From: Candidatus Aenigmatarchaeota archaeon
Lineage (GTDB): Archaea; Aenigmatarchaeota; Aenigmatarchaeia; QMZP01
Length of the DNA: 64,000 nucleotides
Assembly (NCBI GenBank): GCA_016185435.1
Contig: JACPNN010000002.1
Coordinates: forward strand, 1-64,000
Direction of reading: 5' to 3'
Shown: positions 38,470 to 56,706 of the stretch, piece after piece
Position numbering within the stretch: position 1 is the stretch's first letter
Layout: each line of letters opens with the position of its first letter
Position numbers and translations under genes: made by a program
The notes under the pieces: model-generated
What the model was told of the DNA's origin: nothing
The model's database searches: none
What the model saw: the letters and a program-made list of their open reading frames with translations, nothing else

Positions 38470-38859
38470 TGTCTAGCTTCCGCTATCTCTATCAAACAAA
38501 CGAAAAAACTAGAAAAGGCAGGCTGTCCTTTGAACCAGGGTCGTCAGGCGTTTAGTGGCACTGGGCTGAACACCTCCTGTTAGTCGGTGCTTACACCCGT
38601 GCCCTATCAACCTTCTCGTATAGAAGACCTTCCTGCCCGCACCGGCTGTTGCCAGCCAGCTTGGGCAATGGCTGCCTCGTTTTGGGGATGGTTTCGGGCT
38701 TAGATGCCTTCAGCCCTTATCCAACACGGCGTAGCTACTCGGCCATGCTATGAACAACCGATAAACCAGAGGCCGCGAAGCCTTGTTCCTTTCGTACTAG
38801 AGGCTTCTTCCCCTCAGGCAACCCGCACCCTCAGCAGATATAGACCGAACTGTCTCACG

Positions 38860-39585
38860 CATGTTTCTCCATTCCTTTCGGAACGGCATGGACTATACCA
38901 TCATCCTCTGCTTGTTCAGAGGAGACCGGCGTATTAGCCAACTTAGCAAAACCGCCATACATATTGAACATAGATGGCGGCAGCTTAATCAGCTCTCAGC
39001 TTTCGCTTCAGTCTCTACGGGGGTAAGAGTTTACTTTTTACAGTCTCGTATGTTATCTTTCTTTTCTTGGAATAGTTGAGCTGTTTGAACTGGTCTACAA
39101 GCTTGCAGATATCCAAAAAATCTTCTTATATCTTTTGTTTTTAAGCTTCTGCAAAATCTCAAGACCAAGTTCAACTTGTTTTCTTTTGAGCTTAACATAC
39201 GGCTGCAGAAGTGAAAGAATTTTCTTCACTTCCTCTGATTCAACAATAGTATAGTCGCTGATCCCTGTTCTACGATGGCGGATGTAGCCCGCTCCAAATG
39301 TGCCTTTAAGCCATTCCAAGATTTCTGGATATTCGGATTTCTGGTAAAAAGCTATGTTGCTTCTTATCTGAAATCCTTGTCTGTAGTCTTTTCTTGGAAC
39401 TATCTGGAAGAATATGCTTCCATCACCATCCAGGAATCCACAGCTATATAAGCAAGAGTTGCTGAATCCGTAAACCCCACCTTCCCTCGGTATTACCATA
39501 TCTTCTTAATTTTGGAAGATTTAGGCTCCACCGATATGAGCCGGTTTTATTTTTCATGATCTTACGACCACGCAACGCCAAATTG
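38860..39585 (-). mobile_element. Group I intron at the 23S position equivalent to E. coli about 2593
   Basis: 726 nt. The 5' exon ends in T (AACGT, last base 39586) and the intron ends in G (38860) before CGTGAGACAG, the group I rule. A guide sequence GCGTT at the start of the intron pairs with AACGT with a terminal U-G wobble. Near the 3' end are core-like segments GTAGAGACTGAA and GGTATAGTCC, matching the conserved R and S elements of P7. The intron carries an I-CreI-like ORF. All other large rRNA introns here look BHB-type instead. Confidence 0.88.
39015..39499 (-). pseudogene. I-CreI-like LAGLIDADG homing endonuclease, frameshifted
   Basis: The first frame (39499 to 39095, 134 aa) has one LAGLIDADG motif, CGFLDGDGSIFFQI at about 19-32. 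It then resembles I-CreI along the chain, including SDYTI and LQPYVKLKRKQ. After KKIF the frame ends early, but a one-base shift at a run of six T (about 39107-39114) opens FLDICKLVDQFKQLNYSKKRK and ends at 39015, matching the I-CreI C-terminus. So either a frameshift has inactivated it or there is a homopolymer sequencing error. Single-motif enzymes act as homodimers. The ORF overlaps the group I core region R. Confidence 0.85.
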
Positions 39586-39591
39586 ACGTTC

Positions 39592-40044
39592 TTAATTGCT
39601 GGGGAGCCATGACATTTTATTCAACAATTCTAACAGCTTTCTTTTTTTTGCTGGATGCGGAATTTCAATTTTTTGGTAAAACTCCATTATAGAACGTTTT
39701 TTACCGATTCTTAAAATATGCTTGTCACGTTTCTTATCCACGAAAATTTGTGATTCAATTTTTGCTTCTGACAAAATTTGCCTGAACCACAACATCATTT
39801 TCTGGCTTTTTGACCATATCTCTATTTTTGGTCTTCCCCTGTCATTTGTTACTGAGCCATCTCCAGCCACCCAGCCTTTGAAATAATCTATTTCTTTGCT
39901 TAGTATCTGTAAGTCAGGTGGCTCTATACTTGCAGATTTGCTGCCTGACGGAATGTTGTATTTTACGAATATAGTCGATCTGTCTCTAGCCAAATGCCCA
40001 TCGCTTGCGATAATTCCAGCTAAAATATCGATAGATGCCATCAT
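39592..40044 (-). CDS. LAGLIDADG homing endonuclease, internally shortened
   Basis: 150 aa. Two LAGLIDADG motifs, ILAGIIASDGHL at about 8-19 and YFKGWVAGDGSV at about 54-65, are only about 46 residues apart, versus about 90-110 in full two-domain enzymes. Most of the first domain is missing, with a junction near residue 25 where a KYNIPSGSKSAS segment follows directly. It is probably inactive as a nuclease. A TATA-like TTTAAG lies about 25 nt upstream. The last codons extend into the exon. Confidence 0.75.
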   Translation of the reverse strand: MMASIDILAGIIASDGHLARDRSTIFVKYNIPSGSKSASIEPPDLQILSKEIDYFKGWVAGDGSVTNDRGRPKIEIWSKSQKMMLWFRQILSEAKIESQIFVDKKRDKHILRIGKKRSIMEFYQKIEIPHPAKKRKLLELLNKMSWLPSN

Positions 40045-40140
40045 TATTTTCCCTGAATTTTAGCTTAAATGTATATGGATAGTAACGTGCCGCTATGGCC
40101 GCTAGAAGTCGACAAAATATTTAGTCTTGACTCCCTCCCA
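39603..40140 (-). mobile_element. 23S BHB-type intron with short LAGLIDADG ORF
   Basis: The boundaries are supported by pairing of GGGAG-TCAA-GAC (40145-40134) with GTC-ATGG-CTCCC (39613-39602), two short helices with opposed bulges as in archaeal splicing sites. The conserved TAGCGG-n3-TAGCGG element is at 40086-40105. Only about 15 nt of exon separate this intron from the group I intron. Confidence 0.7.
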
Positions 40141-40189
40141 GCTAACGTGGCCCTTTAACCAGTGAACACCTGCACCCTTGGGCGCTTAC

Positions 40190-40305
40190 AGAAGCCCCTT
40201 TTCTTTAGAAAAGAAAAGGCCTTTGGGTTCAAAAGAGACTACAATTGTAGTTTTTCTTTCCCTTAAGGCTTTCTTTTTTTTGGAAAAAGAAAGGCTTATG
40301 CTGCA
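40190..40305 (-). repeat. Hairpin insert in 23S near the 2490s-2500s region
   Basis: Two A/T-rich palindromes, CCTTTTCTTT-AGAAAAGAAAAGG type at about 40196-40220 and CTTTCTTTTTTTTGG-AAAAAGAAAG type at about 40268-40294. They separate 23S blocks that are normally adjacent, before and after the AGCAGG segment. Not coding. Confidence 0.7.
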
Positions 40306-40344
40306 CGCCCAGGAAGGGCCGAGCCGACGGCGGAGGAGCAACGT

Positions 40345-40500
40345 ACGGGGTCGATATATCCAGCCATTCTTTGCATTTTCATCTGAGAGAGATAACAATA
40401 TCTACTATGGATTCCAAAGATCGTTTTCTTTTGTTGAACTCTCCCAGAAAAGTTGCCTGCAAAGTGTGGCTTATGAACTCTCACCCGCCACGACTCCATT
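40345..40500 (-). other. ORF-less insertion in 23S after the GGGGATAA segment
   Basis: About 130-150 nt bounded by complementary ends (GCCACACTTTGCA near 40470 and TGCAAAGAATGGC near 40368) between AGAGTTCATA and TCGACCCCGTACG. No ORF with a recognisable motif. Probably a degenerate BHB intron. Confidence 0.55.
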
Positions 40501-40574
40501 TTAGAGATTAGTCAGAAAGCAGTTTTCTAACTAATTATCCCCAAGGTAACTTTTCCAGTTAGCCATTTCTTGCT

Positions 40575-40632
40575 ATCAGTTTTTCTTTTCGCTAGCGTTT
40601 TCTTTTTACAAAAAGAAAAGGCTATTTCTGAT
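40575..40632 (-). repeat. Hairpin insert in 23S
   Basis: Palindromic A/T-rich sequence (TTTTCTTTTTGTAAAAAGAAAA on the minus strand) followed by GCTAGC and a second AAAGAAAAA run, placed between rRNA blocks before the AAAAGTTACC segment. Confidence 0.65.
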
Positions 40633-40713
40633 AGACCGGGCTCCCAATAAAGGAGCACCGGGGATCGCTAGACCAGGCTTTCGCCGTAGGATCTCCCTAT
40701 GTTAGAGATCCTA

Positions 40714-41625
40714 TCAGGCCAGCTTTTGCTCTTGCACTCTAGGCCCGATGTTCAGTTGGGATAGCTTTCTAAATGAAAATAACTCTTTAAACTTCCTTTT
40801 TTCATCCATATTTCTTATGTTCAATACCCATCTTCTTCTTTCATATTTTGATGTTCTGTATACGGAAGATGGTCTTATTTCAATTGTTGCGAATCCAAAA
40901 CTTTGGAGCATTGCTTCGATTTGCCGCAGCACTCTTGGAGGCTCATCAAGCTTTTTCCCTGCCTGAATAATCCTCACTTGTTTGGAATCCCCATCACATT
41001 CATAAAAGGCCATGATAAAGCGTCTTTTCATTTCTTGATTCATGGACTCATATAAATCCTCAGGAATTTCAATATCTGACTCCACTTTGCTGCTTTTTGG
41101 TATTCTCAGCGTTTGGTTGAGCAGTAAGCCCAAAATTTTTGGGTAATAGAAAGTCATTCTAGATCCGTAATCATACTCTTTTCTTTCCACTTCCCCAAAC
41201 ACCTTTCTGATCAATGCATCAAATCTATGCAACACTTCTTTATCATTCATTGTCAAATGAACTCCCCATTGATGGTTTATGCCACCATCTCCAAACAAGT
41301 AACCCAAAAATTCTGCAAAATCCTCTCTCAATTCCATGGGAAGTTTAACTTTAAGTTGTTTGCCATCTCTTTGCGTTTTAATGGTGGCTTTTTCGATTTC
41401 AAGATTTGCTTCCCTTAATAGCTTTTGCAAAACTTTTAATGGATAACCTGAGTTGCCTTCCTTGTATTTGTAAATGTTTCTTACTGGAAGTTCCAATTTT
41501 ATTGCTATTTGTTTTATTGTGCCTCTTTGAAGCAATTGATCCCAAAGCTTTTGGTTGAGTTCACCTTCCAAGCCCACATATATTGCAGATGGGAACTCAT
41601 GTAGAGCAATCGTTATCATATGCAT
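40714..41625 (-). CDS. LAGLIDADG homing endonuclease with N-terminal helix-turn-helix
   Basis: 303 aa. An N-terminal helix-turn-helix-like region (about 28-70, TIKQIAIKLELPVRNIYKYKEG) is followed by two LAGLIDADG motifs, EFLGYLFGDGGI at about 109-120 and FIMAFYECDGDS at about 203-214, a normal spacing for a two-domain enzyme. Asp residues of both motifs are kept, so it may be active. The C-terminal about 10 codons run into the 23S exon. An in-frame ATG three codons on is an alternative start. Confidence 0.88.
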   Translation of the reverse strand: MHMITIALHEFPSAIYVGLEGELNQKLWDQLLQRGTIKQIAIKLELPVRNIYKYKEGNSGYPLKVLQKLLREANLEIEKATIKTQRDGKQLKVKLPMELREDFAEFLGYLFGDGGINHQWGVHLTMNDKEVLHRFDALIRKVFGEVERKEYDYGSRMTFYYPKILGLLLNQTLRIPKSSKVESDIEIPEDLYESMNQEMKRRFIMAFYECDGDSKQVRIIQAGKKLDEPPRVLRQIEAMLQSFGFATIEIRPSSVYRTSKYERRRWVLNIRNMDEKRKFKELFSFRKLSQLNIGPRVQEQKLA

Positions 41626-41668
41626 ATATGGTGGGTAGGAGGTAATAAAGCTATCCCCATTTCTGACC
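40744..41668 (-). mobile_element. 23S intron carrying the 303-aa LAGLIDADG ORF
   Basis: Interrupts the sequence between the CCCGGTCAGAA block (about 41670) and GAGTGCAAGAGCAAAAG (about 40725). CCCG and CGGG at the two sides can pair. The exact splice points are uncertain by about 10 nt. Confidence 0.65.
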
Positions 41669-42019
41669 GGGTTGAGCTGACCTTTGGGCGCGTTCGATGT
41701 CTTTCCGAACGCGTGCCGCCCCAGCCAAACTGTCCATCTGCTGCTGTCAGCCGAAGCATAAGCAATACAGAAGCTGCAGAGCGGTGTTACATCGTCGCCT
41801 TAGCCACATCTAGCGACATGGCCGCATTGCTCCCGCCTACACTATACAGCTGCTGCTATATCGCAACAGCAGACTACAGTAAAGATCTATGGGGTCTTCT
41901 CGTCCCGCTGAGGGACTCCGGAATATGCACCGGACACAAAGTTCACCGGACACCAGCCCGAGACAGTAGAGCTGTCGTTGTAACATTCATGCAGGTCGAC
42001 AATTAATCGACAAGGGATT

Positions 42020-42073
42020 GCATGCTGTTGGCAAACTGCCAGTAGCTAGTGCCACCATGGCAACAGCTTTACG
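42020..42073 (-). other. Mini-insertion in 23S near helix 71
   Basis: About 50 nt without ORF between AGGTAGCG and AATCCCTTGTCG, which are contiguous in normal 23S. Its ends GCTGTTG and CAACAGC are complementary, so it resembles a minimal BHB intron. Confidence 0.65.
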
Positions 42074-42080
42074 CTACCTG

Positions 42081-42131
42081 TTTCCAGGACGGTCTGTGGG
42101 CATCATCTCGCCCTCTCATGTGACCATCCTT
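42081..42131 (-). other. Mini-insertion in 23S next to helix 69
   Basis: About 50 nt between GACCGTCTTAA and AGGTAGCG. The ends AGGATGGTC and GACCGTCCT pair over 9 bp (one G-U). No ORF. Confidence 0.7.
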
Positions 42132-42149
42132 TAAGACGGTCAGAGTTTG

Positions 42150-42475
42150 CGGGGCAAGAGGTTAGAATTCTATTTAAAAATTGCATCAATAATGGGCTTT
42201 TCTACATCAGGATCCAAGTCTTCTCTTTTCAATAAAACTTGGACCACATCCCAATCATTACTGCCTTTAGGGCCTGTGTCAATTTCATATTCTGAATATT
42301 GTCTACACGTTGGACCATCTCCATATACAGTAAAAAAGCGTACAAGCGAATTGTAACTTTTTTTACCTTGACTATTTATGTGTCGAAAATCGTCTATCAG
42401 CAATGCACCTTTTTTAGTAATTAGAGTGACATATGCCCTTTTAACAGTTAGCTTTTTATTCCTGACTCTCGCCTT
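42150..42475 (-). mobile_element. 23S intron in helix 69 with a small non-endonuclease ORF
   Basis: It splits ACGGCGGCGGTAA from CTCTGACCGTCTTAA, the strongly conserved helix 69 region (E. coli about 1920). Ends GGCGAGAG (42474-42467) and CTCTTGCC (42160-42153) pair over 8 bp. About 325 nt long. Confidence 0.75.
42170..42403 (-). CDS. Small intron ORF, unknown family
   Basis: 77 aa from a TTG. The open frame continues upstream through coding-like sequence (about 13 more residues, LTVKRAYVTLITKKGA) to near the intron end with no ATG, so the true start is uncertain. It shows alternating beta and polar segments, SLVRFFTVYGDG and WDVVQVLLKRED, and no LAGLIDADG, HNH, GIY-YIG or PD-(D/E)XK motif. 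It may be a degraded or new maturase-like protein. Confidence 0.45.
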   Translation of the reverse strand: MLIDDFRHINSQGKKSYNSLVRFFTVYGDGPTCRQYSEYEIDTGPKGSNDWDVVQVLLKREDLDPDVEKPIIDAIFK

Positions 42476-43005
42476 ACCGCCGCCGTTTACCAGGGCTTCA
42501 CCCCCTTGGAAAGGGATTTAACACACTGGTACTGGGCAGTTCTCAAGGGCTATACCAATCGTTTCCGAGTTGCAGCCCCCTATGTTTCTTAACCAGATAA
42601 AGCTTCAGTGGCTTTGCCTGTTTGTTAAACAGACGCAGCTCCCTAGTTTCTTAGACCCATGATTTCTGTCTGAGACAGAGTCATGGACACCCGTTATCCC
42701 GAAGTTACCGGGCTAATTTGCCGAGTTCCTTGGACTGGTTTCATCCGACACACCTTTGCCTTCTCAGCAAGGGGCACCAGTGACGGTTCTAGGTACGGGT
42801 GGAATGGGTCCTTCCCTGCTCCCTTTTCACTGGCTCCGGGAGTCAGCCGAAGCAGCTTGCGCCACCTCATCGCAGCTTCACCCGCTTCTCGCCATTACGG
42901 CACTCTGCGGGCTTCACTGCTTGACATATTCCCACATGTCGGCCTATCCCAAAGCGTCAGGAGCAGGGCTTGCGTTGCCGCGCGTACCACTCCAGTACTG
43001 GAATA

Positions 43006-43236
43006 TTAACCAGTTTCGGGTTCGGAAAGACGATAAAAATCTTCGCTCTCTAAATTCTTTAATCCATTTTGGGAGAGTTCCCTTTCAGCGATTGCGATGT
43101 ATTCTTTGAATGTTCCCTTTACCGGAAATGCTTCGAACATGTAAATACCTTCTGCTCCAAAATGGCTTCTAATTCTCTCCAAATCGTAATCTGCATCCCG
43201 AGGAAAATCCTGATAAAACCGATAATAAGATGCCAT
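43006..43236 (-). CDS. Small intron ORF, unknown family
   Basis: 76 aa (MASYYRFYQDFPRDADYD). TATA-like TTTTTAAAGC lies about 27 nt before the ATG. Aromatic and acidic N-terminus, a central GIYMFEAFPVKGTFKEYI segment and a C-terminal helix. No endonuclease motif. The end reaches into the 3' exon. Confidence 0.5.
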   Translation of the reverse strand: MASYYRFYQDFPRDADYDLERIRSHFGAEGIYMFEAFPVKGTFKEYIAIAERELSQNGLKNLESEDFYRLSEPETG

Positions 43237-43282
43237 GAATCTACTTTCTGCTAAGCTTTAAAAACACATCGCCTCTCCAAAT
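43018..43282 (-). mobile_element. 23S intron with a 76-aa ORF
   Basis: About 265 nt. Ends TTTGGAGAGGCG (43281-43270) and CGTCTTTCCGAA (43032-43021) pair over 12 positions with some G-U pairs. It lies between 23S blocks ending GGGAAATTTGG and starting ACTGGTTAATATTCCAGT. Confidence 0.6.
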
Positions 43283-43639
43283 TTCCCTGTTGACATACTC
43301 CAGTTAGGGTATGCCTTAGGACCGACTAACCCTCAGCCGATAATCGTTGCTGAGGAAACCTGGCCCCTCAGGCGGCCGGAATTTTCATCCGGCTTTGATG
43401 CTACTTATAGCAAGATTCTTGATTCCGCACGCTCCAGCCCCCCTCACGGGGAGAATTCTCAGCATGCGGAACACCCCTCTACCATCCTTATTCAGGATCC
43501 GGGGTATCGGTGGTCTGTTTAGTCCCGTCCATTCTAAAGGCCCCCAACCTCGGTGGGTAAGCTGTTTTGCGGCTCAGATTCCTTCCAGCTTCAGCTTACA
43601 TGAGGCATCCTGGCTTACGCACTTTTTAACGGATTCAGC

Positions 43640-43715
43640 TCTGAGGAGCAATCATTTTTGAGTAATAAGATATAATTTTCGAATTTTCGTTATTGAAGAT
43701 CGCTTTTCAGATTGG
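43640..43715 (-). other. ORF-less AT-rich insertion in 23S
   Basis: About 75 nt of AT-rich sequence after GGCTTAGAAGCAGCC and before AGTGCGTAA, where other 23S genes have a much shorter linker. No coding potential. Confidence 0.5.
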
Positions 43716-43884
43716 CTGCTTCTAAGCCAACCGCCCCACTGTTTTAGGTTGAAGACTCTTTTCCTCACTTAACAGACACTTAGGGACCTTAACCCCGGGC
43801 CGGTTTTCTTTACCTTTCGGACGACGAGCTTACCCCGTGCCCCCACTCCCGCCTTCTATGGCGGCCAAAGATTCGGAGTTTCGT

Positions 43885-43963
43885 CTGGCCTCTCTTCGTC
43901 TTTCTTTCGCTGGCGTTTCTTTATACGCACATCAACATGGAAAGAAAGGCCATTTGACAGGGC
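43885..43963 (-). repeat. Hairpin insert in 23S
   Basis: About 80 nt between GTCAAA and ACTCCGAATC, with TGGCCT/AGGCCA ends and internal CTTTCTTTC...GAAAGAAAG arms. These blocks adjoin each other in normal 23S genes. Confidence 0.65.
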
Positions 43964-44273
43964 AACTGACCCTTTCGAGTCTTGGTTACCCAATCAGTAG
44001 CTCTACCCTCTGGCCTGCCTCCGGCGAGGCTGAACTGCGGTTCACTTCGAGGGGAACCAGCTATCACCGCTTTCGATTGGCTTTTCACCCCTAGCCCCAG
44101 GTGACGGGAGCGATTTGAATCTCAACACCCCATGCGGCCCTCCACCTAGCTTTCGCTAGGCTTCAGCCTCCCCAGGACTAGATCAAGCGGGTTCGGGTCT
44201 CAACCCTGTGACTCGGGCGCTTTCACACCCAGCAGCCTGACCCTTGCGGGCTGCGCTGCATTCGCTTTCGCGA

Positions 44274-44315
44274 GCCCTTTCTTTCCAAAAGAAAGTGCTT
44301 CACCCCAAAGAAAGG
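44274..44315 (-). repeat. 42-nt hairpin element, 23S copy
   Basis: Identical over 42 nt to 56292-56333 in the 16S gene, including a CTTTCTTT-CCAA-AAGAAAG palindrome. The flanks, a TTCGCG-AGCCC context, also match. It lies in an extra hairpin region (about 44270-44375) of the 23S. Confidence 0.85.
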
Positions 44316-44564
44316 ATTTTGTCATGATGAGCACTTATTTCCAGAGAGAAAGGCTTTTTCGCTGCGGCTTCCCTTATCGGTTAGCCTCGCCACAGAGATG
44401 AACTCCTTGCCGAATGCTTCGAAACTTACGATACAACCAGCCATGACCCTGCCTCCATACTGAGTATGTTCGGCAGGGATAAGCGTGGCCATACCACCCT
44501 GTGGCTGTGTGGTTTCAGGTTCTTTTCACCCCCTGTTAAGGGTTCTTTTCAGCTTTAGGGATAT

Positions 44565-45622
44565 GCTAATTGCCTAGCAGACGTTTCAATTTTTCTCTTT
44601 TTTGCCCTCTGAAAATGCCAAGTGAATAGAGTTTTACCGCCTCTTTTTTGGCAGTGGTTAAAATTTTACTATTTTTCTCATACTGGTAATTATGAAAGTT
44701 TATCCCGAGATGTGCAAATATTTCCACAAGATTATTTCTCAATAGCTCGCTTTCTGAGCCGAGGCCTATGCTGACTATGCCTCCTATAATTGTGGAATGT
44801 CCATCAAAATTTATGACTTCTTTTGCAAACTCCCATCTTAATTGCCATCTTAAATCTTCAGGGAACTCTGACAAAATTCTAGCATCTTTTCCAGAGAAAA
44901 TTGCAGGTTCCTTTACTATGTGAGATTTCTCTCCAATAGGAAAATCAAAAAGCAGCACAAGATACCGTGAAATTATCTGCATATTTGTCCATATGTAACT
45001 CATCTTACCTTTCTTGAGAATAGGCAGTTCAATCTCAAATAAGTCATCAATCCATTTTTTAACTGCAAGGATGTTCGATTTTTCTAAATCTCCAATATCC
45101 CATCTAGCAGTTGTAGGTCCTTTACCTTTCCAACCATATAAACAGCCGTCAGCTGCATGCGCTCCGCATATATTGGCAAGTTCTGGTCTTAAGTAAATAA
45201 CTGCCTTGATTTTCTTTGATACCCTCCCGCACTGAAGATGTGTAATGTTCCTGATAATCTCATTATGCATTTCAGAACCTTTGGAATACGTCAGTTGCAG
45301 TAGTTTATCCAATGCCCAAAGTGGAATCGGATGCCCCTTAGGATATTTCTTGTTAAAGCCTCTCCAGTTTTGAATGGAGATTTTGTTCACATTCATAATC
45401 TTGGCCAACTGGGCATAACTGATTCTGCTGTTCTGGCAGAAACTCGTCGAAAGCTCATCGAAAATCTTGTTGAGTTTCTCACCTCCGAATGCCCTTACTG
45501 CTGATTTTTCCGTATCCTCCGGATGATGCAGTTTCAAGATATCTATTAGAGGGTACATTTTTACACCATACTATTATATAGTAGTACAGTGTAATTATAA
45601 AGCCTATGACGGCAATTAGCGC
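44565..45622 (-). mobile_element. 23S BHB-type intron with the 330-aa ORF
   Basis: Interrupts GAGGGAAA | GCTGAAAAGAACCC. The ends GCTAATTGCC (45620-45611) and GGCAATTAGC (44575-44566) are a perfect 10-bp inverted repeat that brings the exons together. Confidence 0.85.
44566..45558 (-). CDS. LAGLIDADG-type homing endonuclease with N-terminal HTH
   Basis: 330 aa. A helix-turn-helix-like segment (about 45-70, ISYAQLAKIMNVNKISIQNW) is followed by divergent LAGLIDADG motifs: LANICGAHAADGCLYG at about 127-142, and AKEVINFDGHS near 245. Acidic residues are kept, though the motifs are unusual. A palindrome ACTACTATATAATAGTA just before the start may be a TATA/operator site. The ORF ends at the 3' repeat. 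Confidence 0.75.
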   Translation of the reverse strand: MYPLIDILKLHHPEDTEKSAVRAFGGEKLNKIFDELSTSFCQNSRISYAQLAKIMNVNKISIQNWRGFNKKYPKGHPIPLWALDKLLQLTYSKGSEMHNEIIRNITHLQCGRVSKKIKAVIYLRPELANICGAHAADGCLYGWKGKGPTTARWDIGDLEKSNILAVKKWIDDLFEIELPILKKGKMSYIWTNMQIISRYLVLLFDFPIGEKSHIVKEPAIFSGKDARILSEFPEDLRWQLRWEFAKEVINFDGHSTIIGGIVSIGLGSESELLRNNLVEIFAHLGINFHNYQYEKNSKILTTAKKEAVKLYSLGIFRGQKREKLKRLLGN

Positions 45623-45671
45623 ATTTTCCCTCGCAGTACTAGTTCGCTATCGGACTTACCCCCAGAGAAGC

Positions 45672-46559
45672 TCACACAGATGGTGTATTGGAAATATATT
45701 CAACAGAAGGCAATAGATTGTGAAGATTATGAATTTCCAAAAGGTGTATGAGATCTTCATAAAATATTACCTTGACATCGCCCTCACAAAAATTAGTAGG
45801 TTTTGATGCAGTCGTTATGACCCATGCACTTTGAGCATCATGATTTTTCCTGTTTCGACTTGCCTCTCCTATTCCATGCTTCCAATAAAAGCTTCTTTTT
45901 ACTGTTGCTTTGTGTTCGATAATTATAGATTTTCCATGTTTGCTTACAATCATATCCGGCCCATGGCCGTTATATATTTTTTGTGTATGGTTTATTTTAT
46001 AGCCCATTTTGTTGAATAATGCACTAAGAACTTCGGTCAGTATTTCATATTTCTCTTTTGCGACTTTCTGGTTTAGTGCACGCTTCTTAACTATTCCTGC
46101 TTTAACAAGTCTGTAATGAACACTTGAAGGATGGAGTTTCAACATATTCGCTGTTTTTGAAATGGATCCAGTTTTTCTGTACAGATTTTGCATAATCTCT
46201 TCTTGCTTTTTGGTAACTTTTGGCGAAAATTTCCCATTTTTTGAAGTGTCAACACCCACTTTATTGAGATAATATCTGACTGTTCCATTATCTGTGTTAT
46301 ACTTCTTCGCTATATCAATTGTCGATTGGCCACGTAAATACATCTCTTTAAACTGAACCACATCGCTGTTATAGAATGCTGTTTTATGTTGCCTCTTTTT
46401 CCTGCACTCATCCTGTACCTGTTTCTTGAGATGGAAATGAACAGTCCCTGAACTCAACTTTAATTTATTTGCTATTTCCCCCATCGATATGCCGCTATTG
46501 TACATTTGCACCATTTTTGGTATTAGCTGCATATCGATTTTGGGATAAAAATTGGCCAT
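45672..46559 (-). CDS. Intron-encoded PD-(D/E)XK nuclease with three HTH segments
   Basis: 295 aa. Three helix-turn-helix units at about 11-45, 66-100 and 117-155, each with a pattern like EIANKLKLSSGTVHFHL, precede a restriction-type nuclease core at about 170-265. That core has Glu in ILTEVL (about 176), GPDMIV with D202, SIIIEHKA with E215 and K217, and a DAQSAWVITTA strand. No LAGLIDADG motif is present. TATA-like TTTTTAAATA lies about 22 nt upstream. Position inside the 23S and multi-HTH DNA binding argue for a homing endonuclease of the PD-(D/E)XK class. Confidence 0.85.
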   Translation of the reverse strand: MANFYPKIDMQLIPKMVQMYNSGISMGEIANKLKLSSGTVHFHLKKQVQDECRKKRQHKTAFYNSDVVQFKEMYLRGQSTIDIAKKYNTDNGTVRYYLNKVGVDTSKNGKFSPKVTKKQEEIMQNLYRKTGSISKTANMLKLHPSSVHYRLVKAGIVKKRALNQKVAKEKYEILTEVLSALFNKMGYKINHTQKIYNGHGPDMIVSKHGKSIIIEHKATVKRSFYWKHGIGEASRNRKNHDAQSAWVITTASKPTNFCEGDVKVIFYEDLIHLLEIHNLHNLLPSVEYISNTPSV

Positions 46560-46627
46560 ATTGATAATTCTGCATACCTATTTAAAAATGTGAAGGGAGG
46601 GCAGCATACCGGCAATGCCGATACACT
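45680..46627 (-). mobile_element. 23S intron encoding the PD-(D/E)XK nuclease
   Basis: Lies between the block ending GAATGGTGCAGGGCA (about 46630) and GTAAGTCCGATAGCGAACTAGTAC (about 45655). GTGTAT (46626-46621) pairs with ATACAC (45688-45683). The 5' end carries a variant of the shared intron element (TATCGG-n3-TGCCGG, about 46602-46622). Confidence 0.75.
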
Positions 46628-46816
46628 GCCCTGCACCATTCATTATGGAGCTTCCCCAGTTCAGGCTATATTTAGGATTGGCCCTTATTGCGGGCCGTCT
46701 TCCCATTCCATATCCGAGGAATGGTACTCAGGATACCTTGCATCAGCCCTCCAGAATTCGCATACGGGGCTTTCACCCTCTCTGGCATGCCGTTCCAGGC
46801 AACTTCTGCTCAACTT

Positions 46817-47596: not shown

Positions 47597-47672
47597 GATA
47601 GGAACTTGATTTTGTTTATAATCTGCATTGGGGTAGTGATATGCCACTATACCGCTATACTTTGACAATATG
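46905..47672 (-). mobile_element. 23S intron near the 5' end of the gene
   Basis: Between the CCCGGAGGAAA region (about 47700) and GGCGATCGAAAAGGG (about 46900). The shared 5' element (TATAGCGG-TATAGTGGCA) is at 47660-47641. Precise splice sites are not resolved. Confidence 0.65.
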
Positions 47673-48252
47673 CTCCCTCTGCTGTTAGCTCCCATCATGT
47701 TTCCTCCGGGTATTAAGATGTTTCAGTTCCCCGGGTACCCCTTCCGGATTGCTCCGGAATGCCTGGTAAACCAGGCGGGATTCCCATTCAGCAACCCTGG
47801 GATCGATGCCTGCATGCGGCTCCCCCAGGCTTATCGCAGCTTGCCGCGGCCTTCATGGGTACCTGAGCCAAGCCGTTCACCACACAGCCTAGTGACCCTG
47901 TGTGTCCGGACAGCCTGCCTGTGACAATCATTATAAAGGGACTCGCAAGGTGTTCGACTAGCGCTCATCGCCCCTTCTCATGTCAGCCCTCGCACCGTTC
48001 GGTGCAGAGCCTCATAATGTCCATTGAGGGACCATGAATGCCACAGACATGTGGCCGATGAATAAGCCTAACCAAAAGAGAAGTCCAGAGAATAGCGTAC
48101 TGTATAATGAGATGCTGTCGCCAGCTCCCACCACCTTAGCTGCAGCTCTGCCGTCTGCCACAACAGCTTAGCCGACTCTGAACAGCCCTTGATGGCCCGG
48201 CTCCAATGCAATGATATGATGATTATTAGTGTTAAGATTATGACTGCGAAGG

Positions 48253-50581: not shown

Positions 50582-50687
50582 AGAGAGGTATGAATGCAAA
50601 GCTTTATATACCTTTCTGTGGCCTGCCGAGGACAAAATAAGGAGGTGATCCAGCCGCACGTTCCCGTACGGCTACCTTGTTTGTCGG

Positions 50688-50962
50688 ATAGCGAGACGAT
50701 GTTTCAAATAGGCTTCCTATAAATATCTTCTCCAGGTGAAGGGTACATGGGTATACCTATCCATCTGTCTAGTTCTTGGTGTATATAAACTTCTTTATCC
50801 GGATATAACCGAACAAGTCGATTAATGAATTCTCTTGTTACAGCATACTCTTCTGAAACAATAGATATATCTCCCATGCGATTCACTGCGGTATTCTTGG
50901 AACTAAGATATTTAAATGCTTATCATCTTGGCAAAGCCAATCAATTTGCCCATCTCGCCGTC
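50688..50962 (-). mobile_element. 16S intron near E. coli about 1500 with a 60-aa ORF
   Basis: It splits GTCGTAA from ACAAGGTAGCCG, close to the decoding site. GGCGAGATG (50959-50951) and CATCGTCTCGC (50701-50691) pair with one bulge. About 275 nt. Confidence 0.75.
50704..50886 (-). CDS. Small intron ORF, unknown family
   Basis: 60 aa from a GTG, or 57 from ATG 50877 (MGDISIVSEEYAV). TATA-like TTTAAATA sits about 30 nt upstream. One alpha helix (TREFINRLVRLYP) between beta-like segments and a C-terminal Pro/Gly-rich tail. No known endonuclease motif. Confidence 0.5.
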   Translation of the reverse strand: MNRMGDISIVSEEYAVTREFINRLVRLYPDKEVYIHQELDRWIGIPMYPSPGEDIYRKPI

Positions 50963-51102
50963 TTACGACTTAGCCCACTTTGCAGGACTTTGGCTCGACT
51001 CTGCCATGAAGACAGAGGCTCGCCAAAGCTCCACTCAGTTGGCTTGACGGGCAGTGAGTGCAAGGAGCAGGAACGTATTCATCGAAAGATGGTGACTTTC
51101 GA

Positions 51103-51990
51103 TTATTCCCCTGGTGTCAGAATTGTGGCATTAAAACCATAATCAAAAGCTTTTTTCTTTTCTGGATGTATTTGCAATATATCAAGATTTTTAATTTTCT
51201 GGAAATTATCGAAACCGCTTATAGCGATATAAAAATCATATACAGCATTGGAAGGCACCACCTTTACAAACTTCAACAATTTCCTTATAAAATGCTGTTC
51301 ATTTTCATTGCAGGACGCTATTCGAATTTCCCTTATTTTATTCTGGTGAAGTTTTACCGATCCTTCCCTTGCAATCAGCCCTTTAAGAAAATTCAATCCA
51401 ACTTCCTGATTGTACAAACTCAATATTTTCACAGTTGCTAAAAGGCTGTCAACGATGTCCCTAACAACAACGCTTGGATAGTATACTTCAACGACGCCAT
51501 ACTTAGGCACAGGTTTTCTGTTTCTCTCATATTTTCTTTTTGACTTGTATCTTGCAATTTTTATAAAATTCTCTTTTGGTATTCCGGTCTTTTCCGACCA
51601 ATACATTAGTAATTCATCATCAGGCGTATCGAAACCATAAGTTCTTATATAAGCTTTCAATATGTTGGTTCCGACACCCACTACCTTGAATAAATTCATA
51701 CCTTCTAGAACCACTGAAATTTCTGAGTTCGAAAATCTTGTCAACCATCTTTTGGAGGATTTGTCACCTTCAGCGTAATAAATTCCTAAAGATTTAACCA
51801 ATTCTGGTGTTATTGCTATTTCTTTGGGAACTGATAACCGCTTGGAATTACTCCCGCCTGGAAGGTTTCTGTAATATCTTATTCTTATGAAGTTTCCACT
51901 TTTTTCATCTTCAATATTCCTTTCAGTTGGAAGTAAATTTAGAGTTTTCAACAACAGTTTTTCTGAATTTACTGAAATTTTTGATTTCAT
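51103..51990 (-). CDS. LAGLIDADG homing endonuclease
   Basis: 295 aa. Motif 1, VKSLGIYYAEGDKS at about 60-73, and motif 2, FLKGLIAREGSVK at about 202-214, have Glu in place of the usual final Asp, which is allowed in this family. Two-domain monomer with normal motif spacing. The N-terminal 55 residues are a small accessory region. The ORF ends in the 3' boundary repeat. Likely intact. Confidence 0.85.
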   Translation of the reverse strand: MKSKISVNSEKLLLKTLNLLPTERNIEDEKSGNFIRIRYYRNLPGGSNSKRLSVPKEIAITPELVKSLGIYYAEGDKSSKRWLTRFSNSEISVVLEGMNLFKVVGVGTNILKAYIRTYGFDTPDDELLMYWSEKTGIPKENFIKIARYKSKRKYERNRKPVPKYGVVEVYYPSVVVRDIVDSLLATVKILSLYNQEVGLNFLKGLIAREGSVKLHQNKIREIRIASCNENEQHFIRKLLKFVKVVPSNAVYDFYIAISGFDNFQKIKNLDILQIHPEKKKAFDYGFNATILTPGE

Positions 51991-52094
51991 GGTTTGTTGT
52001 TATCGAAGCGGGCTTATCTACTTTTGGATAGCATCATACCGCTAGGTCCGCTATCGAAAAGGAGAATATGTCCGCAGAGTATATTCTGACACCA
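51112..52094 (-). mobile_element. 16S intron with 295-aa LAGLIDADG ORF
   Basis: Ends GGTGTCAGAAT (52093-52083) and ATTCTGACACC (51123-51113) form a perfect 11-bp stem. It lies between GGAATCCCTAG and the GAATACGTTCCTGCTCC block (E. coli about 1380-1390). The shared TAGCGG-n3-TAGCGG element is at 52055-52031. Confidence 0.85.
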
Positions 52095-52193
52095 TCTAGG
52101 GATTCCGGCTTCATGAGGGTGAGTTACAACCCTCAATCTGAACTAAGCGCACGTTTAGGGATTGGCTCTCCCTTTCGGGGTCGCAGCCCTCTG

Positions 52194-52847
52194 TCATGCG
52201 CATTGCAGGCCGCGTTTGGCCTCGGATAGGCAATAAGATAATTTTTTGATCTTGTCAGGATGTCGAAATCCTATCAAATCAGCATAAAGCGTGACATTCT
52301 CAATACCGATTATCTGGAATCCAAAGATTTTCTTTGAATCCCATGTTGTCACATGAATACCCAGTTTTTTGATCAAAGAACAGAGTTCATCTCTCATTTT
52401 CCTGTTGACTATGTTCAGAGCAATTCTGGGCGATATGTAAATTTTCTCGTTTCTTCTGCTCTTTTTTAGTGTCACCCAACCTTCCGCATCCATCCAGCCT
52501 CGTATATATTCTCCAATAACATCATTCGGCACTGAAAGCATTTCCTTAGGCGTCTCCATTCTGTATGTCTTGTCTTTTCCTTCAGGAATGGAAAAGGCTT
52601 CCGAATACAACTTATATACACTCTTCGAGTTTATTCTCGTCCTGTAAGTTGTGTTGCCTTTTGCCGTCTTGTACGAGGAAATTACTGTTTTCACACCAAA
52701 CAGCTGTCTGAATATAGGTTTGAGAACAGAGTGATGGAAGTCTGGATTAATGTCTGTTATCGTTACTCTCTTCTCTGTCAAACTATCGTCTCCTCCTATC
52801 AGCCCTATTGTATATGCTAAAAGCGGTTCCACACTACAGCTTTGCAT
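52194..52847 (-). CDS. LAGLIDADG homing endonuclease
   Basis: 217 aa. Motif 1, AYTIGLIGGDDSL at about 10-22, and motif 2, IRGWMDAEGWVTL at about 115-127, followed by a C-terminal half with TWDSKKIFGFQIIG and IGFRHPDKIKKL, typical of archaeal rRNA-intron enzymes. The acidic residue of each motif is present. It is similar in plan to the 221-aa and 205-aa enzymes of the same gene. The last residues are encoded past the intron stem. Confidence 0.88.
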   Translation of the reverse strand: MQSCSVEPLLAYTIGLIGGDDSLTEKRVTITDINPDFHHSVLKPIFRQLFGVKTVISSYKTAKGNTTYRTRINSKSVYKLYSEAFSIPEGKDKTYRMETPKEMLSVPNDVIGEYIRGWMDAEGWVTLKKSRRNEKIYISPRIALNIVNRKMRDELCSLIKKLGIHVTTWDSKKIFGFQIIGIENVTLYADLIGFRHPDKIKKLSYCLSEAKRGLQCA

Positions 52848-52918
52848 TTTTTACATTTAAGTGAAATCCAAGCAGCATGCCGCTAGAGCCGCTAGGAAAA
52901 GCGAAACTTGCCTATCCG
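52222..52918 (-). mobile_element. 16S intron with 217-aa LAGLIDADG ORF
   Basis: Ends CGGATAGGCAA (52918-52908) and TTGCCTATCCG (52233-52223) pair perfectly over 11 bp. The shared 5' element lies at 52895-52874. Confidence 0.85.
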
Positions 52919-53154
52919 ATGTAGCCCAATGGATTTGGAGCTTCCGCCTCTGGGGGCAGATGCTGTTTCCATATCGGCCTTTTTTGTGGTTGTAAGGGTT
53001 CTGCTGCTCTCAAAGCATACGGACCTGCCGTCGCCCACTCCTTCCTCTGGTTTATCACCAGCGGTCCCCTATGAGTGCCTTGGCAGAGCCAAGTAGCAAC
53101 ATAGGGCGTGGGTCTCGTTCGTTAGGCTCTGCAGAATGAGATTATTCTTTTATG

Positions 53155-53420
53155 TTGTCCTCAGTCTGTAGATTTGCCTGACTTAACAGGACGCTTCACA
53201 GCACGAACTTTGTCGTCCCGAGAAGAGACTGTTTATTATATTTTATTTTTGCCAATTTCGTGTCGCTGCATCCTGCTACCTACTTACCACGGCTCTAGTA
53301 CATGGCTGGCTAAGAGGCTGTTATCATCATCCCACCCTTCCCGAGATGACGACGGCTTTGCAAAGCCTCTTCTACATCTTAAGCAGCTTTCGAGCAGAAA
53401 AGACCTACATGCACCACCTC
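53155..53420 (-). other. Two ORF-less insertions in 16S
   Basis: One insert (about 53158-53222) separates GTTAAGTCAGGCAA from CGAACGAGACCC. Another (about 53235-53420) splits the block between AGAGGTGGTGCATG and GTTCGTGCTGTGAAGCGTCCTG. Both contain short inverted repeats and no coding frame. They look like small or decayed introns. Confidence 0.55.
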
Positions 53421-53441
53421 TGAGCGTGTCTGGTAAGGTCT

Positions 53442-54107
53442 TCAGCTTAGTCTCCGGCCAGGTGATATATTCGATAACAAATTTGCCTTCTTTGCTGGAT
53501 GCTTCATTATTGTTGAAATTTTCTGACATTTCCCAACACCATTCCAACAAATTGTGTATCGTGGTTTCCTATTGATATAATTTCTTTTGGCCAGTGCTGG
53601 CTTTGTGCTTGGAAATCCTATAACTTTCGATAACTCATGCAAACCATCGGTATAATTCTTGTTAACGGATTCCAGCTCTACACATGGATAGGCATAAATC
53701 TTTCCCTTGATTCGGAATCTCTTTGTTTTCGATGTGCCTTCTGCATCTATCCACCCAGCTAAATGCCAAAGCTTGATTCTCTTGTTGCTTTCCATTATCT
53801 TCTCTGGTATCTTGTCTACATATGTTTTTGATCTTCCACTGGAATAGCCGAATTTCATAATTCTTTCTACAATCTTTCGGTTTCTGACAATTGTGTACCA
53901 TGAATTTCTTGTCTTATCATAGATTATTGATGGATTGAAACCGAACTCGTTGACAAAAATCGGCCGTAGAACTTCAAAATGGAAATCCTTATTCTTATCG
54001 GATATGGAGACCAGATACTGTTTACTTTTCTTTACATAAATGGTTCCATCCCCTCCGACGACACCTAGAAGATATGCAAGCTGCTCTGATATCACATTAT
54101 CGGTCAT
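53442..54107 (-). CDS. LAGLIDADG homing endonuclease
   Basis: 221 aa. Motif 1, AYLLGVVGGDGTIY at about 11-24, motif 2, LAGWIDAEGTSK at about 116-127, and a C-terminal IGFPSTKPA region. TATA-like TATATAA lies about 24 nt before the ATG. No frameshift or missing acidic residue is seen. The terminal residues (SPGRRLS) come from exon sequence. Confidence 0.88.
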   Translation of the reverse strand: MTDNVISEQLAYLLGVVGGDGTIYVKKSKQYLVSISDKNKDFHFEVLRPIFVNEFGFNPSIIYDKTRNSWYTIVRNRKIVERIMKFGYSSGRSKTYVDKIPEKIMESNKRIKLWHLAGWIDAEGTSKTKRFRIKGKIYAYPCVELESVNKNYTDGLHELSKVIGFPSTKPALAKRNYINRKPRYTICWNGVGKCQKISTIMKHPAKKANLLSNISPGRRLS

Positions 54108-54195
54108 ATCTGTTTCTTTGTGTCGGTTATATATCTATAGCATCCAACGGTAGCGTGCCGTTAAGCCGCTATATTCAAGGCAGTTCTAATCACCT
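53458..54195 (-). mobile_element. 16S intron with 221-aa LAGLIDADG ORF
   Basis: Ends CAGGTGAT (54196-54189) and ATCACCTG (53466-53459) pair over 8 bp; the shared 5' element with modified halves is at 54172-54153. Confidence 0.75.
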
Positions 54196-54291
54196 GACGG
54201 GATCTGACCTTCATTCTGCTCTCGCCACTGGTAAGTTGCCCGGCGTTGGATCCAATTGAACCGCAGCCTTCACCCCTTGTGTGCTCCCCCG

Positions 54292-54958
54292 CCTATTCGG
54301 GGAAAACAATCCGATTTCTCAGCATTTCCAATCTTCTCTTCTTATCCTTATGCCAGCTCCCAATCTTATCGCAGAAAAATATCATATCTTTCTTGCGTGC
54401 GAGCCTGAATTCCCAGACTTTTCCGCAGAAGGTGATATTTGTCGGCTTGTACCCCTTTTTAATAAGAAGTTTCCGCAGAAATCGCACAGCTTCCTTGTTT
54501 TTCTGGCTGAACGACAGATATAATTGCTCTGCGTTCCCAGGGTTCTTTGGAAGTCCTCCCTCAGCATCAAAAAAGCCTCTCAGATAGCTGATCTGAATCT
54601 CAAGAGGCTGTATCTTGATGATTTTCGGAGTCTCCCAAAATTCCTGTGGTATTTTCATCTCGGAAATTTCGAGGACAGAATTCACAACATCCTTTCCATT
54701 CAGTCGCAAAATTACTGCTCCGTTTACATGTTTCGTGATGTTGCCTCTGATTCCAAAATGCGTTTCAAAGAACTTCTGTAATAACACAAGCCAGTCCATT
54801 TCTTTCTGGGATATCTTGATTTCATAATTTTTCGCTTTCCTTATATCTGCTGTGGCATCTCTTAAAGCACCAAGAAGATATGCTATTTCTGGATGGATGC
54901 TATTTTCCATCTATTCAATTGGTCGGCATAACTTAAGTGTGTTATCGGGTTGCTTTCT
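54292..54958 (-). mobile_element. 16S intron with 205-aa LAGLIDADG ORF, at E. coli about 908
   Basis: Lies before the GGCGGGGGAGCAC block. GGGAAA...CAA-CCGAT (about 54959-54940) pairs with ATCGG-TTG-TTTTCCC (about 54315-54300), a helix with unpaired bases on both sides as in BHB splice sites. Confidence 0.75.
54293..54910 (-). CDS. LAGLIDADG homing endonuclease, first motif degenerate
   Basis: 205 aa. Motif 1 is eroded (AYLLGALRDATADI, without the G-D/E-G end), whereas motif 2 is intact (LRGFFDAEGGLPKN at about 111-124). The C-terminal half with KNKEAVRFLRKLLIKKG is normal. Missing the first catalytic acidic residue, it is probably impaired or acts only as a maturase. The stop codon lies at the junction with the 3' exon. 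Confidence 0.8.
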   Translation of the reverse strand: MENSIHPEIAYLLGALRDATADIRKAKNYEIKISQKEMDWLVLLQKFFETHFGIRGNITKHVNGAVILRLNGKDVVNSVLEISEMKIPQEFWETPKIIKIQPLEIQISYLRGFFDAEGGLPKNPGNAEQLYLSFSQKNKEAVRFLRKLLIKKGYKPTNITFCGKVWEFRLARKKDMIFFCDKIGSWHKDKKRRLEMLRNRIVFPE

Positions 54959-55127
54959 TTCCCTTAAGTTTACTGGGAAAGCTCTTGCATAAAACCGCCT
55001 TCCTTTCAGCCTTGCGACCGTACTTCCCAGGCGGCCCGTTTAATGGTTTCCCTACGGCCCTGAAATTCCCCTTGAGAATTCCAAAGCCTAACGGGCATCG
55101 TTTACGGCCAGGACTACGCGGGTTTTC

Positions 55128-55452
55128 AGGGCGGGAATGAGATTAATCAGCAATGACTTCTATTCTTTCATTTCTCTCAAAAGATTTCGAACCCCTTTTT
55201 TGTGTCACTATATATATTATTGGTTTACCAACAACCTCGTCAGGTACTGGAGCAATTTCAAAAGCTCTGTCCGGCATTTCATCAGTGTCAGTCTGATGGC
55301 CTTCAAAGTACCATTGCGTATAGTTTGAGGGTAGACCTTCTCTGCTTTTTCTTATAATTCCTCTGTATGTTCCTGCTTTCGGTTGTGCATCAAAATCTTC
55401 TGGTATAAGCTATAGTTAACCCTAAGTTTTTTATTCCTTCTCATTCCCGCCA
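55128..55452 (-). mobile_element. 16S intron at E. coli about 788 with a small ORF
   Basis: It splits GCGGATTAG from ACCCGCGTAGTCC. A perfect 12-bp inverted repeat GGCGGGAATGAG (55451-55440) / CTCATTCCCGCC (55141-55130) joins its ends. About 325 nt. Confidence 0.85.
55143..55409 (-). CDS. Small intron ORF without a standard start codon
   Basis: 88 codons open from a TAG at 55412-55410 to TAA at 55145-55143. The reading is clearly protein-like (PEDFDAQPKAGTYRGII, then YTQWYFEGHQTDTDEMPDRA), but no ATG, GTG or TTG occurs before the internal ATG at about codon 46. No LAGLIDADG or other nuclease motif. It may be a fragment, use a rare start, or have its start created by splicing. Unknown family. 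Confidence 0.5.
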   Translation of the reverse strand, partial: LIPEDFDAQPKAGTYRGIIRKSREGLPSNYTQWYFEGHQTDTDEMPDRAFEIAPVPDEVVGKPIIYIVTQKRGSKSFERNERIEVIAD

Positions 55453-55524
55453 ATCTAATCCGCTTTGCTCCCCTGGCTTTCGTCCCTCACCGTCAGATCC
55501 GTTCTGGTGCAGCGCCTTCGCCAT

Positions 55525-55810
55525 TTACCATCCCTTTTCACATGTATATTTGATGACTAGTTTTTCCGCAAGCGCTTTTCGTGCAAGCGGCAGCTGTAGT
55601 GAAAAGGGTTTCTGGTAGTCCTCCATGGATTAAAGCATTGCAAGGCCTTCTTCTCATATAGTTTTTGGATTAAACCTTTTGACAAATTCAGCCCGAAAAG
55701 GTTTACTTTCTCTTTTTCGTTGACGTTTTCTTTTTACCAGCTTTCTTTATATTGTGTTTCTTTTTCGCAGGCGTTTTTCTTTCTGAAAGAAAAAGGCCTT
55801 TTTACTGCTA
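55525..55810 (-). repeat. Hairpin-rich inserts in 16S around E. coli about 700
   Basis: A first insert (about 55655-55810) with several CTTTCTTT/AAAGAAAG arms lies between CCATGGGTAGCAGTA and AATCCATGGAGGACTACCAG. A second (about 55530-55608), with CCCTTTTCA/TGAAAAGGG ends, lies between ACTACCAG and GCGAAGGCG. Neither has an ORF. Confidence 0.65.
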
Positions 55811-56274
55811 CCCATGGAATACTCTGCACCCCTCCCGGTCCCAAGCCTAACAGTATCCCTGGCAAGCCTGACAGTTTGCTGCCAGATTTCACCAGAGACT
55901 TGAAAGGCCGGCTACGAACGCTCTAAGCCCAGTAATCGTGGTCACCACTAGGGGTCCGGGTATTACCGCGGCGGCTGGCACCCGTGTTGCCCACCCCTTA
56001 TTCTCCGAGCTGTTTGCACTCGGCAAAAGCCACACCCGAAGGCGTGGCACTCCAGCTTCCTTCCTCACTCTTGCGAGCATTGGGAAATTTTCGCGCCTGC
56101 TGCACCCCGTAGGACCTGGACTCTTGTCTCAGAGTCCATCTCCGGGCTCCCTCTCTCAAGGCCCGTAGGCGTTATCGGTTTGTCGGTACGTTACACCGAC
56201 AACAGCCTGATACCCCGCAGCCCCATACTAAGTTCAGCAACGACCATTCCAGGAACCGTTGCCTATCGGCTCTT

Positions 56275-56395
56275 AGCCTCACTTTCGCGGAGCCCTTTCT
56301 TTCCAAAAGAAAGTGCTTCACCCCAAAGAAAGGTTTTTCTTTTCCCAGGGGTTTTCTTTTTTCCAAAAAGAAAAGGCCTTTCGCGAGATTATAGC
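56275..56395 (-). repeat. Hairpin insert in 16S including the shared 42-nt element
   Basis: About 110 nt of A/T-rich palindromes interrupt helix 8 of 16S (between CTCGCGAAAG and GTGAGGCTAA). 56292-56333 is identical to 44274-44315 in 23S. Confidence 0.8.
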
Positions 56396-56706
56396 CGGCC
56401 TTAGTGCAGGTTAGCTACGTGTTACTGAGCATTATGCCCTGGTTTAACCCAGAACAAGCATGGCTTAGTCGAAACCGGATAGCAGTGACCTCCGGCAGGA
56501 TCAACCGGAATCGGCGGGTTTATACTCCTTGCTTTTCTCCTTTGTTTTCCTCAGCAAGTTTCCACAAGGACCTGCCTCAAGCTTAACGTTGAGCATCAAG
56601 CTCGCATATTGGTGTGTCATAGTTTACTCCGCGTAAACTCAGCCTCATTGCCTGCTGAGGCACATGGCCTGTAAGCAGACTCGGTAGTAGATATTAATAC
56701 GCCATG

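Follow-up and report, generated by a model that had tools for sequence, protein, structure and literature searches.

Predicted bulge-helix-bulge introns and one probable group I intron crowd the single pair of rRNA genes of an aenigmatarchaeon

Introduction

What are the sequences that stretch the 16S and 23S rRNA genes of a Candidatus Aenigmatarchaeota archaeon to 5,872 and 9,375 nt, and can ribosomal RNA be made from genes of such length? The two genes lie on the minus strand of a 64,000-nt stretch of DNA (GenBank assembly GCA_016185435.1, contig JACPNN010000002.1, positions 1 to 64,000), which we refer to as the window. A preliminary description, made from the letters of the window, had proposed that the inserts are archaeal bulge-helix-bulge (BHB) introns. 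Our analysis suggests that the single rRNA pair of this DPANN archaeon is cut by about 34 introns, 33 of them BHB introns and one a group I intron, a reading to which we assign a probability of about 0.93. That the introns are actually cut out and the exons joined, and the route by which they spread, we infer from sequence.

Layout of the rRNA Genes

The genes were analyzed by spliced dynamic-programming alignment against rRNAs with few introns from other genomes of the order, at first against single relatives and then against a profile, which splits adjacent inserts that single references fuse. By this alignment the 16S gene occupies 56511..50640 with 15 exons and 14 introns, and the 23S gene 47905..38531 with 20 introns and one probable expansion of a variable region. 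The 35 inserts amount to 4.4 kb in 16S (14 inserts) and 6.4 kb in 23S (21 inserts); once they are removed, the exons sum to ~1,445 nt and ~2.97 kb, giving restored rRNAs of 1.45 kb and about 3.0 kb, and the conserved blocks keep their expected order in both genes. The preliminary description had already reported this order, and its gene lengths of 5.87 and about 9.4 kb prove correct. Exact as well are its counts of six larger inserts in 16S (329, 663, 757, 705, 990 and 283 nt) and eight in 23S (659, 1005, 1069, 268, 328, 911, 541 and 719 nt), if a limit of >250 nt is applied, and the many mini-inserts that it had mentioned number 8 in 16S and 13 in 23S, with a range of 34–162 nt. The Rfam alignment that it had proposed finds archaeal small-subunit (SSU) and large-subunit (LSU) pieces on the minus strand, although only partially, with 16S recovered as fragments. 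Tiny exons were recovered by the profile, namely AAACTTAAGG and GCCGTCGTC in 16S and GGTAGCGT and TTAAGAACG in 23S.

Inserts are named by gene and Escherichia coli position, with an accuracy of a few nt. The reference 16S is 22 nt short and +22 was added beyond position 400, a shift that reproduces GATTAGAT ending at 793 as well as the site 1498. No second rRNA copy is present in the assembly, which is 95% complete, and the locus is thus its sole rRNA pair.

BHB Structure of the Insert Ends

The preliminary description had noted that most inserts have complementary ends. This complementarity is significant in 30 of the 35 when compared with shuffles (p<0.05), and in 24 of the 35 when compared with ends swapped between inserts, and in the recurring duplex four base pairs with the exon are followed by a bulge of 3 nt, confined to the 5′ strand, and then by a long stem. 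A canonical BHB, in which two 3-nt bulges flank a 4-bp helix of 5′ exon and 3′ intron end, is found for 32 of 35 inserts (p<=0.017 each) against a null of 4,000 random placements with equal shift freedom, where fewer than one pass is expected by chance. For 24 of these 32, cutting where the motif dictates yields the alignment-optimal rRNA without any cost; the rest lie within 8 score units, and at LSU/1926 the cut improves the rRNA profile score. Bulge base identity took no part in the BHB score; AA makes up the 3′ bulge of 27 of 35 inserts, where the background is 11.6%, and 28 have A as the third base of the 5′ bulge.

Covariation, in a test that covers SSU/1498 alone, points in the same direction. 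The SSU/1498 intron is common to 11 genomes of the order, in which 96% of cells in the paired ends are paired and both sides have changed in 6 of the 16 pairs (20 cells). The covariation score was reached by 0 of 500 shuffles, and controls with slid partners pair at most 57%. Together with the presence and absence of inserts in relatives and with the genes for a splicing endonuclease and a ligase, both described below, this further backs the BHB reading of the preliminary description, which is supported for 33 of the 35 inserts and fails for LSU/2593, taken as a group I intron, and for LSU/549, probably an expansion.

Relatives, Splicing Genes and an Interrupted Ligase

Hairpin expansions or RNase III sites would also give complementary ends, which raises the question of whether the inserts could be retained in the ribosome as expansion segments, or be excised without religation to leave a fragmented rRNA, like RNase III intervening sequences. 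LSU/549, and perhaps SSU/694, do lie within regions that are variable in most relatives. On the other hand, the 3+3 bulge geometry and the AA bulge are specific for BHB substrates, and inserts hit the functional core of both rRNAs (LSU 2449, 2475, 2583 and 1911–1936; SSU 793 and 1498). Relatives speak against retention as well. We applied the identical survey procedure to 20 of them, leaving out negative-score rows (gene absent or truncated), and found that G028 and G030 have nearly intronless rRNA and that most insert sites of the window are empty in G028, G030 and G038; normal expansion segments, which the preliminary description had named as one finding that would overturn its reading, are thus not what the alignment reveals, LSU/549 excepted. 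For that insert (36 nt, 44476–44441) a normal expansion of a variable region is the probable explanation, because it has no BHB fit and its site is variable in most relatives.

The genome also encodes what splicing would require. Its splicing endonuclease (402 amino acids) has as best solved relative the epsilon2 enzyme of ARMAN-2 (1.7e-92), an endonuclease type in which a loop permits varied bulges (PMC12397907), and the RtcB ligase is encoded as well. The rtcB gene itself (L051, G000:C9:72538-73878) is interrupted by a 30-nt insert, ATCTCTGGAACAGTATTCCAGAAAGGCTAA, which puts a stop codon in frame within the conserved MPDGH|WGYGFP and can fold as a BHB with an AA bulge, so that the message of the ligase must itself be spliced. 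At the same codon the rtcB of G003 (L205) carries a different 30-nt insert with a stop, and that of G001 carries none. The rtcB insert is independent support for the removal of short BHB inserts in this lineage; since it shares the design of the rRNA inserts and holds a stop codon, it is also a further argument against retention or fragmentation in the rRNA genes, both of which we consider very unlikely. We therefore continue with excision and religation as the preferred reading.

A search of 268 kb found, rtcB excepted, no general excess of BHB mini-introns in protein genes (2 strict hits, compared with 1 after shuffling), and among candidate mini-introns that would restore an open reading frame (ORF) the AA bulge is no commoner than other bulges. 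Upstream of the rtcB insert are an ORF resembling LAGLIDADG proteins and another MPLPKE start, the second. Few tRNAs are picked up by standard tools in this genome. The D-loop of the tRNA gene at L190:4703-4796 apparently contains a BHB intron of 20 nt (GGCC-AA|ACCTTGACAAAAGGGGCTAA|GG), and a tRNA-Ser(GGA) with a 55-nt intron is located in the window at 16808–16945 on the minus strand.

Exon Integrity and Points of Weakness

Several observations weigh against the reading of about 34 spliced introns. Splicing is read here from DNA, and the assembly is a metagenome bin. BHB scores are weak for LSU/627 and LSU/1094 (both p=0.016), LSU/2428 was assigned a BHB by inspection, with one extra nucleotide and a negative automated test, and LSU/2593 and LSU/549 fail the BHB test. 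Sites near SSU/694 carry inserts of varying BHB quality in most relatives, for which reason one or two inserts could be expansions retained by the ribosome. Finally, columns that are identical across 14 relatives and E. coli (650 in 16S and 991 in 23S) deviate in the restored rRNAs at 23 and 30 positions, respectively, which is above most relatives; G001 has 31 such deviations in 23S.

This surplus of deviations could suggest an rRNA pseudogene in decay, which gathers insertions, with the functional copy absent from the assembly, and metagenome bins do often lose rRNA operons. However, the 650 and 991 invariant columns show no gap and 96.5% (16S) and 97.0% (23S) of them are retained, decay would not leave the BHB intact at nearly all sites, and the assembly holds no other rRNA. 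We find a pseudogene extremely improbable; judged by these columns, the exons form real ribosomal RNA, and we hold to a functional pair of genes interrupted by introns.

The Probable Group I Intron at LSU/2593

The 719-nt insert at LSU/2593 (38867..39585) has no BHB and bears the marks of a group I intron. Its ends read AACGU|..GCGUU..AUG|CGUGAG, with an exon U at the 5′ site, the guide GCGUU, to which the exon AACGU pairs, and G as the last intron base, and it encodes a LAGLIDADG_1 ORF (39499–39095). The 3′ half of the insert gives a weak match to RF00028 (38986–38869; 23.6 bits, with a gathering score of 50, and E=0.001 in a small search) that includes the P7-like GGUAUAGUCC. LSU/2593 is a known site of archaeal group I introns (PMC6125680). 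The flanking exon is AAGAACGT|CGTGAGACAGTTCGG as in E. coli, while most relatives have AAGTACGGTGCGAGCCAGTACGG, which would fit co-conversion of the flanking exon during homing.

One could ask whether many of the other inserts are likewise group I introns in degenerate form and not BHB introns, as group I introns do occur in relatives, in G001 at SSU/1498 and in G031 at LSU/1931, and the insert at LSU/2593 has the features just described. RF00028, however, gives no other match in the locus even at E<=5, and the window's own SSU/1498 insert is of a BHB lineage that ten relatives have in common with it, so we give this possibility almost no weight and keep the assignment of 33 inserts to the BHB class. 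A conversion of a group I intron to a BHB intron at SSU/1498 was also considered and was dropped, since the BHB lineage is common to ten relatives and the group I intron of G001 is unrelated to it.

The Individual Introns and Their Reading Frames

All introns are on the minus strand. In the 16S gene, the BHB test and spliced alignment place the mini-introns SSU/155 (96 nt, 56284..56379), SSU/694 (162 nt, 55638..55799) and SSU/722 (88 nt, 55524..55611), and the BHB intron SSU/793 (329 nt, 55124..55452), which contains a small non-endonuclease open frame. The BHB test and profile alignment place the mini-introns SSU/906 (35 nt, 54970..55004), SSU/1057 (51 nt, 53357..53407), SSU/1099 (52 nt, 53122..53173, with an alignment boundary of 53176–53125) and SSU/1211 (75 nt, 52942..53016, with a boundary uncertain by 6 nt), as well as the 138-nt intron SSU/1066 (53210..53347). 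Four longer introns identified by the BHB test have LAGLIDADG ORFs: SSU/916 (663 nt, 54296..54958; ORF 54910–54293), SSU/1018 (757 nt, 53447..54203; ORF 54107–53442), SSU/1226 (705 nt, 52216..52920; ORF 52847–52194) and, with a weak domain, SSU/1347 (990 nt, 51106..52095; ORF 51990–51103). The order-wide SSU/1498 (283 nt, 50681..50963) is supported by the BHB test and by its covarying BHB stem. The core of this intron (also at loci L008–L023) contains, in most members, GGGCAA-nn-TGA, a hairpin and often ATGA, and resembles a kink-turn or box C/D element.

In the 23S gene the BHB test identifies the mini-introns LSU/215 (113 nt, 47588..47700), LSU/627 (89 nt, 44268..44356), LSU/908 (74 nt, 43880..43953), LSU/1076 (79 nt, 43634..43712), LSU/1094 (50 nt, 43566..43615), LSU/1784 (34 nt, 42588..42621), LSU/2533 (113 nt, 40186..40298) and LSU/2449 (36 nt, 40501..40536), the last in the peptidyl-transferase ring. 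Profile alignment adds to the test for the mini-introns LSU/1926 (50 nt, 42081..42130) and LSU/1936 (51 nt, 42018..42068), and relatives add to it for the intron LSU/2475 (115 nt, 40357..40471). For LSU/549 (44441..44476), the probable expansion, the test was negative and relatives vary at the site. The mini-intron LSU/2428 (73 nt) is at 40553..40625. LAGLIDADG ORFs occur in LSU/243 (659 nt, 46901..47559; ORF 47698–47156, start uncertain), LSU/2319 (911 nt, 40750..41660; ORF 41625–40714) and LSU/2583 (541 nt, 39596..40136; ORF 40044–39592), all three found by the BHB test, as were LSU/439 (1005 nt, 45656..46660), LSU/469 (1069 nt, 44556..45624), LSU/1381 (268 nt, 43015..43282) and LSU/1911 (328 nt, 42147..42474).

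Large ORFs are thus found in ten introns and are mostly of homing endonuclease type. The ORF of LSU/439 (45672–46559), in which Cbp1-like helix-turn-helix repeats are joined to an Mrr-type PD-(D/E)xK nuclease, is a candidate for an unusual homing endonuclease, and no family could be assigned to the 330-aa ORF of LSU/469 (45558–44566). Four introns of 268–329 nt, namely LSU/1381, LSU/1911, SSU/793 and SSU/1498, contain open frames whose length exceeds expectation (p 0.0015 to 0.03) and which belong to no known family. Those of LSU/1381 (43236–43006) and LSU/1911 (42403–42170) had no convincing relatives in 40 genomes, one match of E=0.006 being the exception. The four frames could possibly be orphan cargo.

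The 16S–23S spacer (47906–50639, 2.7 kb) contains a 393-aa ORF with weak dUTPase similarity, and no tRNA was detected in it. A 36-nt hairpin repeat at 49960–49995 is identical to a copy elsewhere in the genome, at L191:2594-2629.

Spread of the Mini-Introns

The survey of relatives indicates that the intron-rich trait belongs to the order, and that among the genomes examined the window is extreme in the length of its genes and not in insert number. G005 has 59 inserts (22 in 16S and 37 in 23S), 34 of which reach a BHB score of at least 22, where the null has its 99% point; G009 has 24, G007 has 17, and G016 has 23 in 23S alone.

Some mini-introns have closely similar bodies at different sites. 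The 3′ half of SSU/155 and LSU/627 share 56 nt that are 96% identical, and this core occurs only twice in the whole genome. A family of pyrimidine hairpins comprises SSU/155, SSU/694, LSU/908, LSU/2428, LSU/2533, an intron in a tRNA (L194:17185) and, outside the rRNA genes, a spot at 35287, its weaker members being uncertain because of their low-complexity composition. In G016, LSU/2533 and SSU/1079 share 74 nt (90.5% identical), and in G007 one mini-intron family is present at six sites. In a set of 15 similar pairs, drawn from five genomes, body identity is 73–98%, whereas the 4-nt arms agree between members at 16 of 60 positions, which is the chance level; the same arms pair to their own exon at 110 of 120 positions and to the exon of the partner at 56 of 120. 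Mini-intron arms form 3.74 of 4 pairs with their own exon against 1.57 at other sites. Boundaries were set by the best BHB within 4 nt, which biases such numbers toward own pairing; when foreign introns were placed at a site and re-optimized over the same shifts, however, they scored ~14 on average against 26 for the resident intron.

We tentatively propose that, within a genome, BHB mini-introns lacking an endonuclease multiply among sites in 16S, 23S and probably tRNA, and that the new 3′ arm comes to match the new exon as if it were templated by the target at insertion or adapted very quickly, a proposal that we regard as somewhat more likely to be wrong than right. The fit of the arms could have arisen either by templating at insertion or by adaptation afterwards.

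Discussion

In the mechanism that we envisage, a 4-bp helix would form in the transcript between the last bases of an exon and the 3′ end of the intron, with two bulges of 3 nt left unpaired, the epsilon2 endonuclease would cut between the second and third bulge bases, and RtcB would join the exons, while the group I intron at LSU/2593 would splice itself. The large ORFs in ten introns, mostly homing endonucleases, could account for mobility. Some of the ~20 gene-free mini-introns lie ~10–15 nt from an endonuclease intron and might ride along with it by co-conversion, and others would apparently have been copied between sites.

If so, one ribosome would need some 34 correct splicing events, and the gene for the ligase would need splicing too. 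Ribosomal RNAs of such make-up would escape 16S surveys by polymerase chain reaction as well as standard rRNA annotation. How archaea gain BHB introns is an old open question, for which this order offers a natural experiment; we consider it a good system for studying archaeal intron spread because its members range from near-intronless to ~60 inserts, with shared intron bodies and site-fitted arms.

In the open-access literature we found no report of such density in one archaeal gene pair, of a BHB intron in rtcB or of mini-intron families with customized arms, which in itself is weak evidence. The preliminary description had called the density extreme, and as far as the open-access literature goes this stands for archaea, but a sister genome has 59 inserts, and in bacteria of the Candidate Phyla Radiation (CPR) one rRNA gene can have as many as 16 insertions of 100 bp or longer, up to 5.6–5.8 kb (PMC11270868). 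The CPR bacteria resemble our archaeon in their reduced genomes and in single-copy rRNA genes full of inserts that bear LAGLIDADG ORFs, but theirs are group I and group II introns, whereas here BHB introns dominate and most are <165 nt. The intron at LSU/2593 shares with archaeal group I introns (PMC6125680) its site, the U before the intron, the terminal G and a LAGLIDADG ORF, whereas SSU/1498, another group I site in archaea, is here occupied by a BHB intron. The BHB intron in cbf5 of Crenarchaeota (PMC2738675) is, like the one in rtcB, found in a protein gene for an RNA enzyme, but here the gene codes for the ligase itself, and its intron measures 30 nt.

The closest likeness in the rRNA genes is to Thermoproteales such as Pyrobaculum and Caldivirga, whose 16S and 23S genes have BHB introns with endonucleases, hairpin introns <50 nt and paired mini- and endonuclease introns (PMC4496867). 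BHB ends, LAGLIDADG ORFs, sub-50-nt hairpins and a mini-intron beside an endonuclease intron (1205/1213, 901/908) are features in common, and the loci overlap at 722 and near 908, 919 and 1213. In 2015, 13 loci were known across all archaea (PMC4496867), whereas a single 16S gene has 14 here, with 155, 694, 1018, 1057, 1347 and 1498 off that list, and the introns reside in a DPANN archaeon that has an epsilon2 endonuclease. The BHB introns of archaeal rRNA are thus of a known kind, and it is their density and the pattern of their arms that look new.

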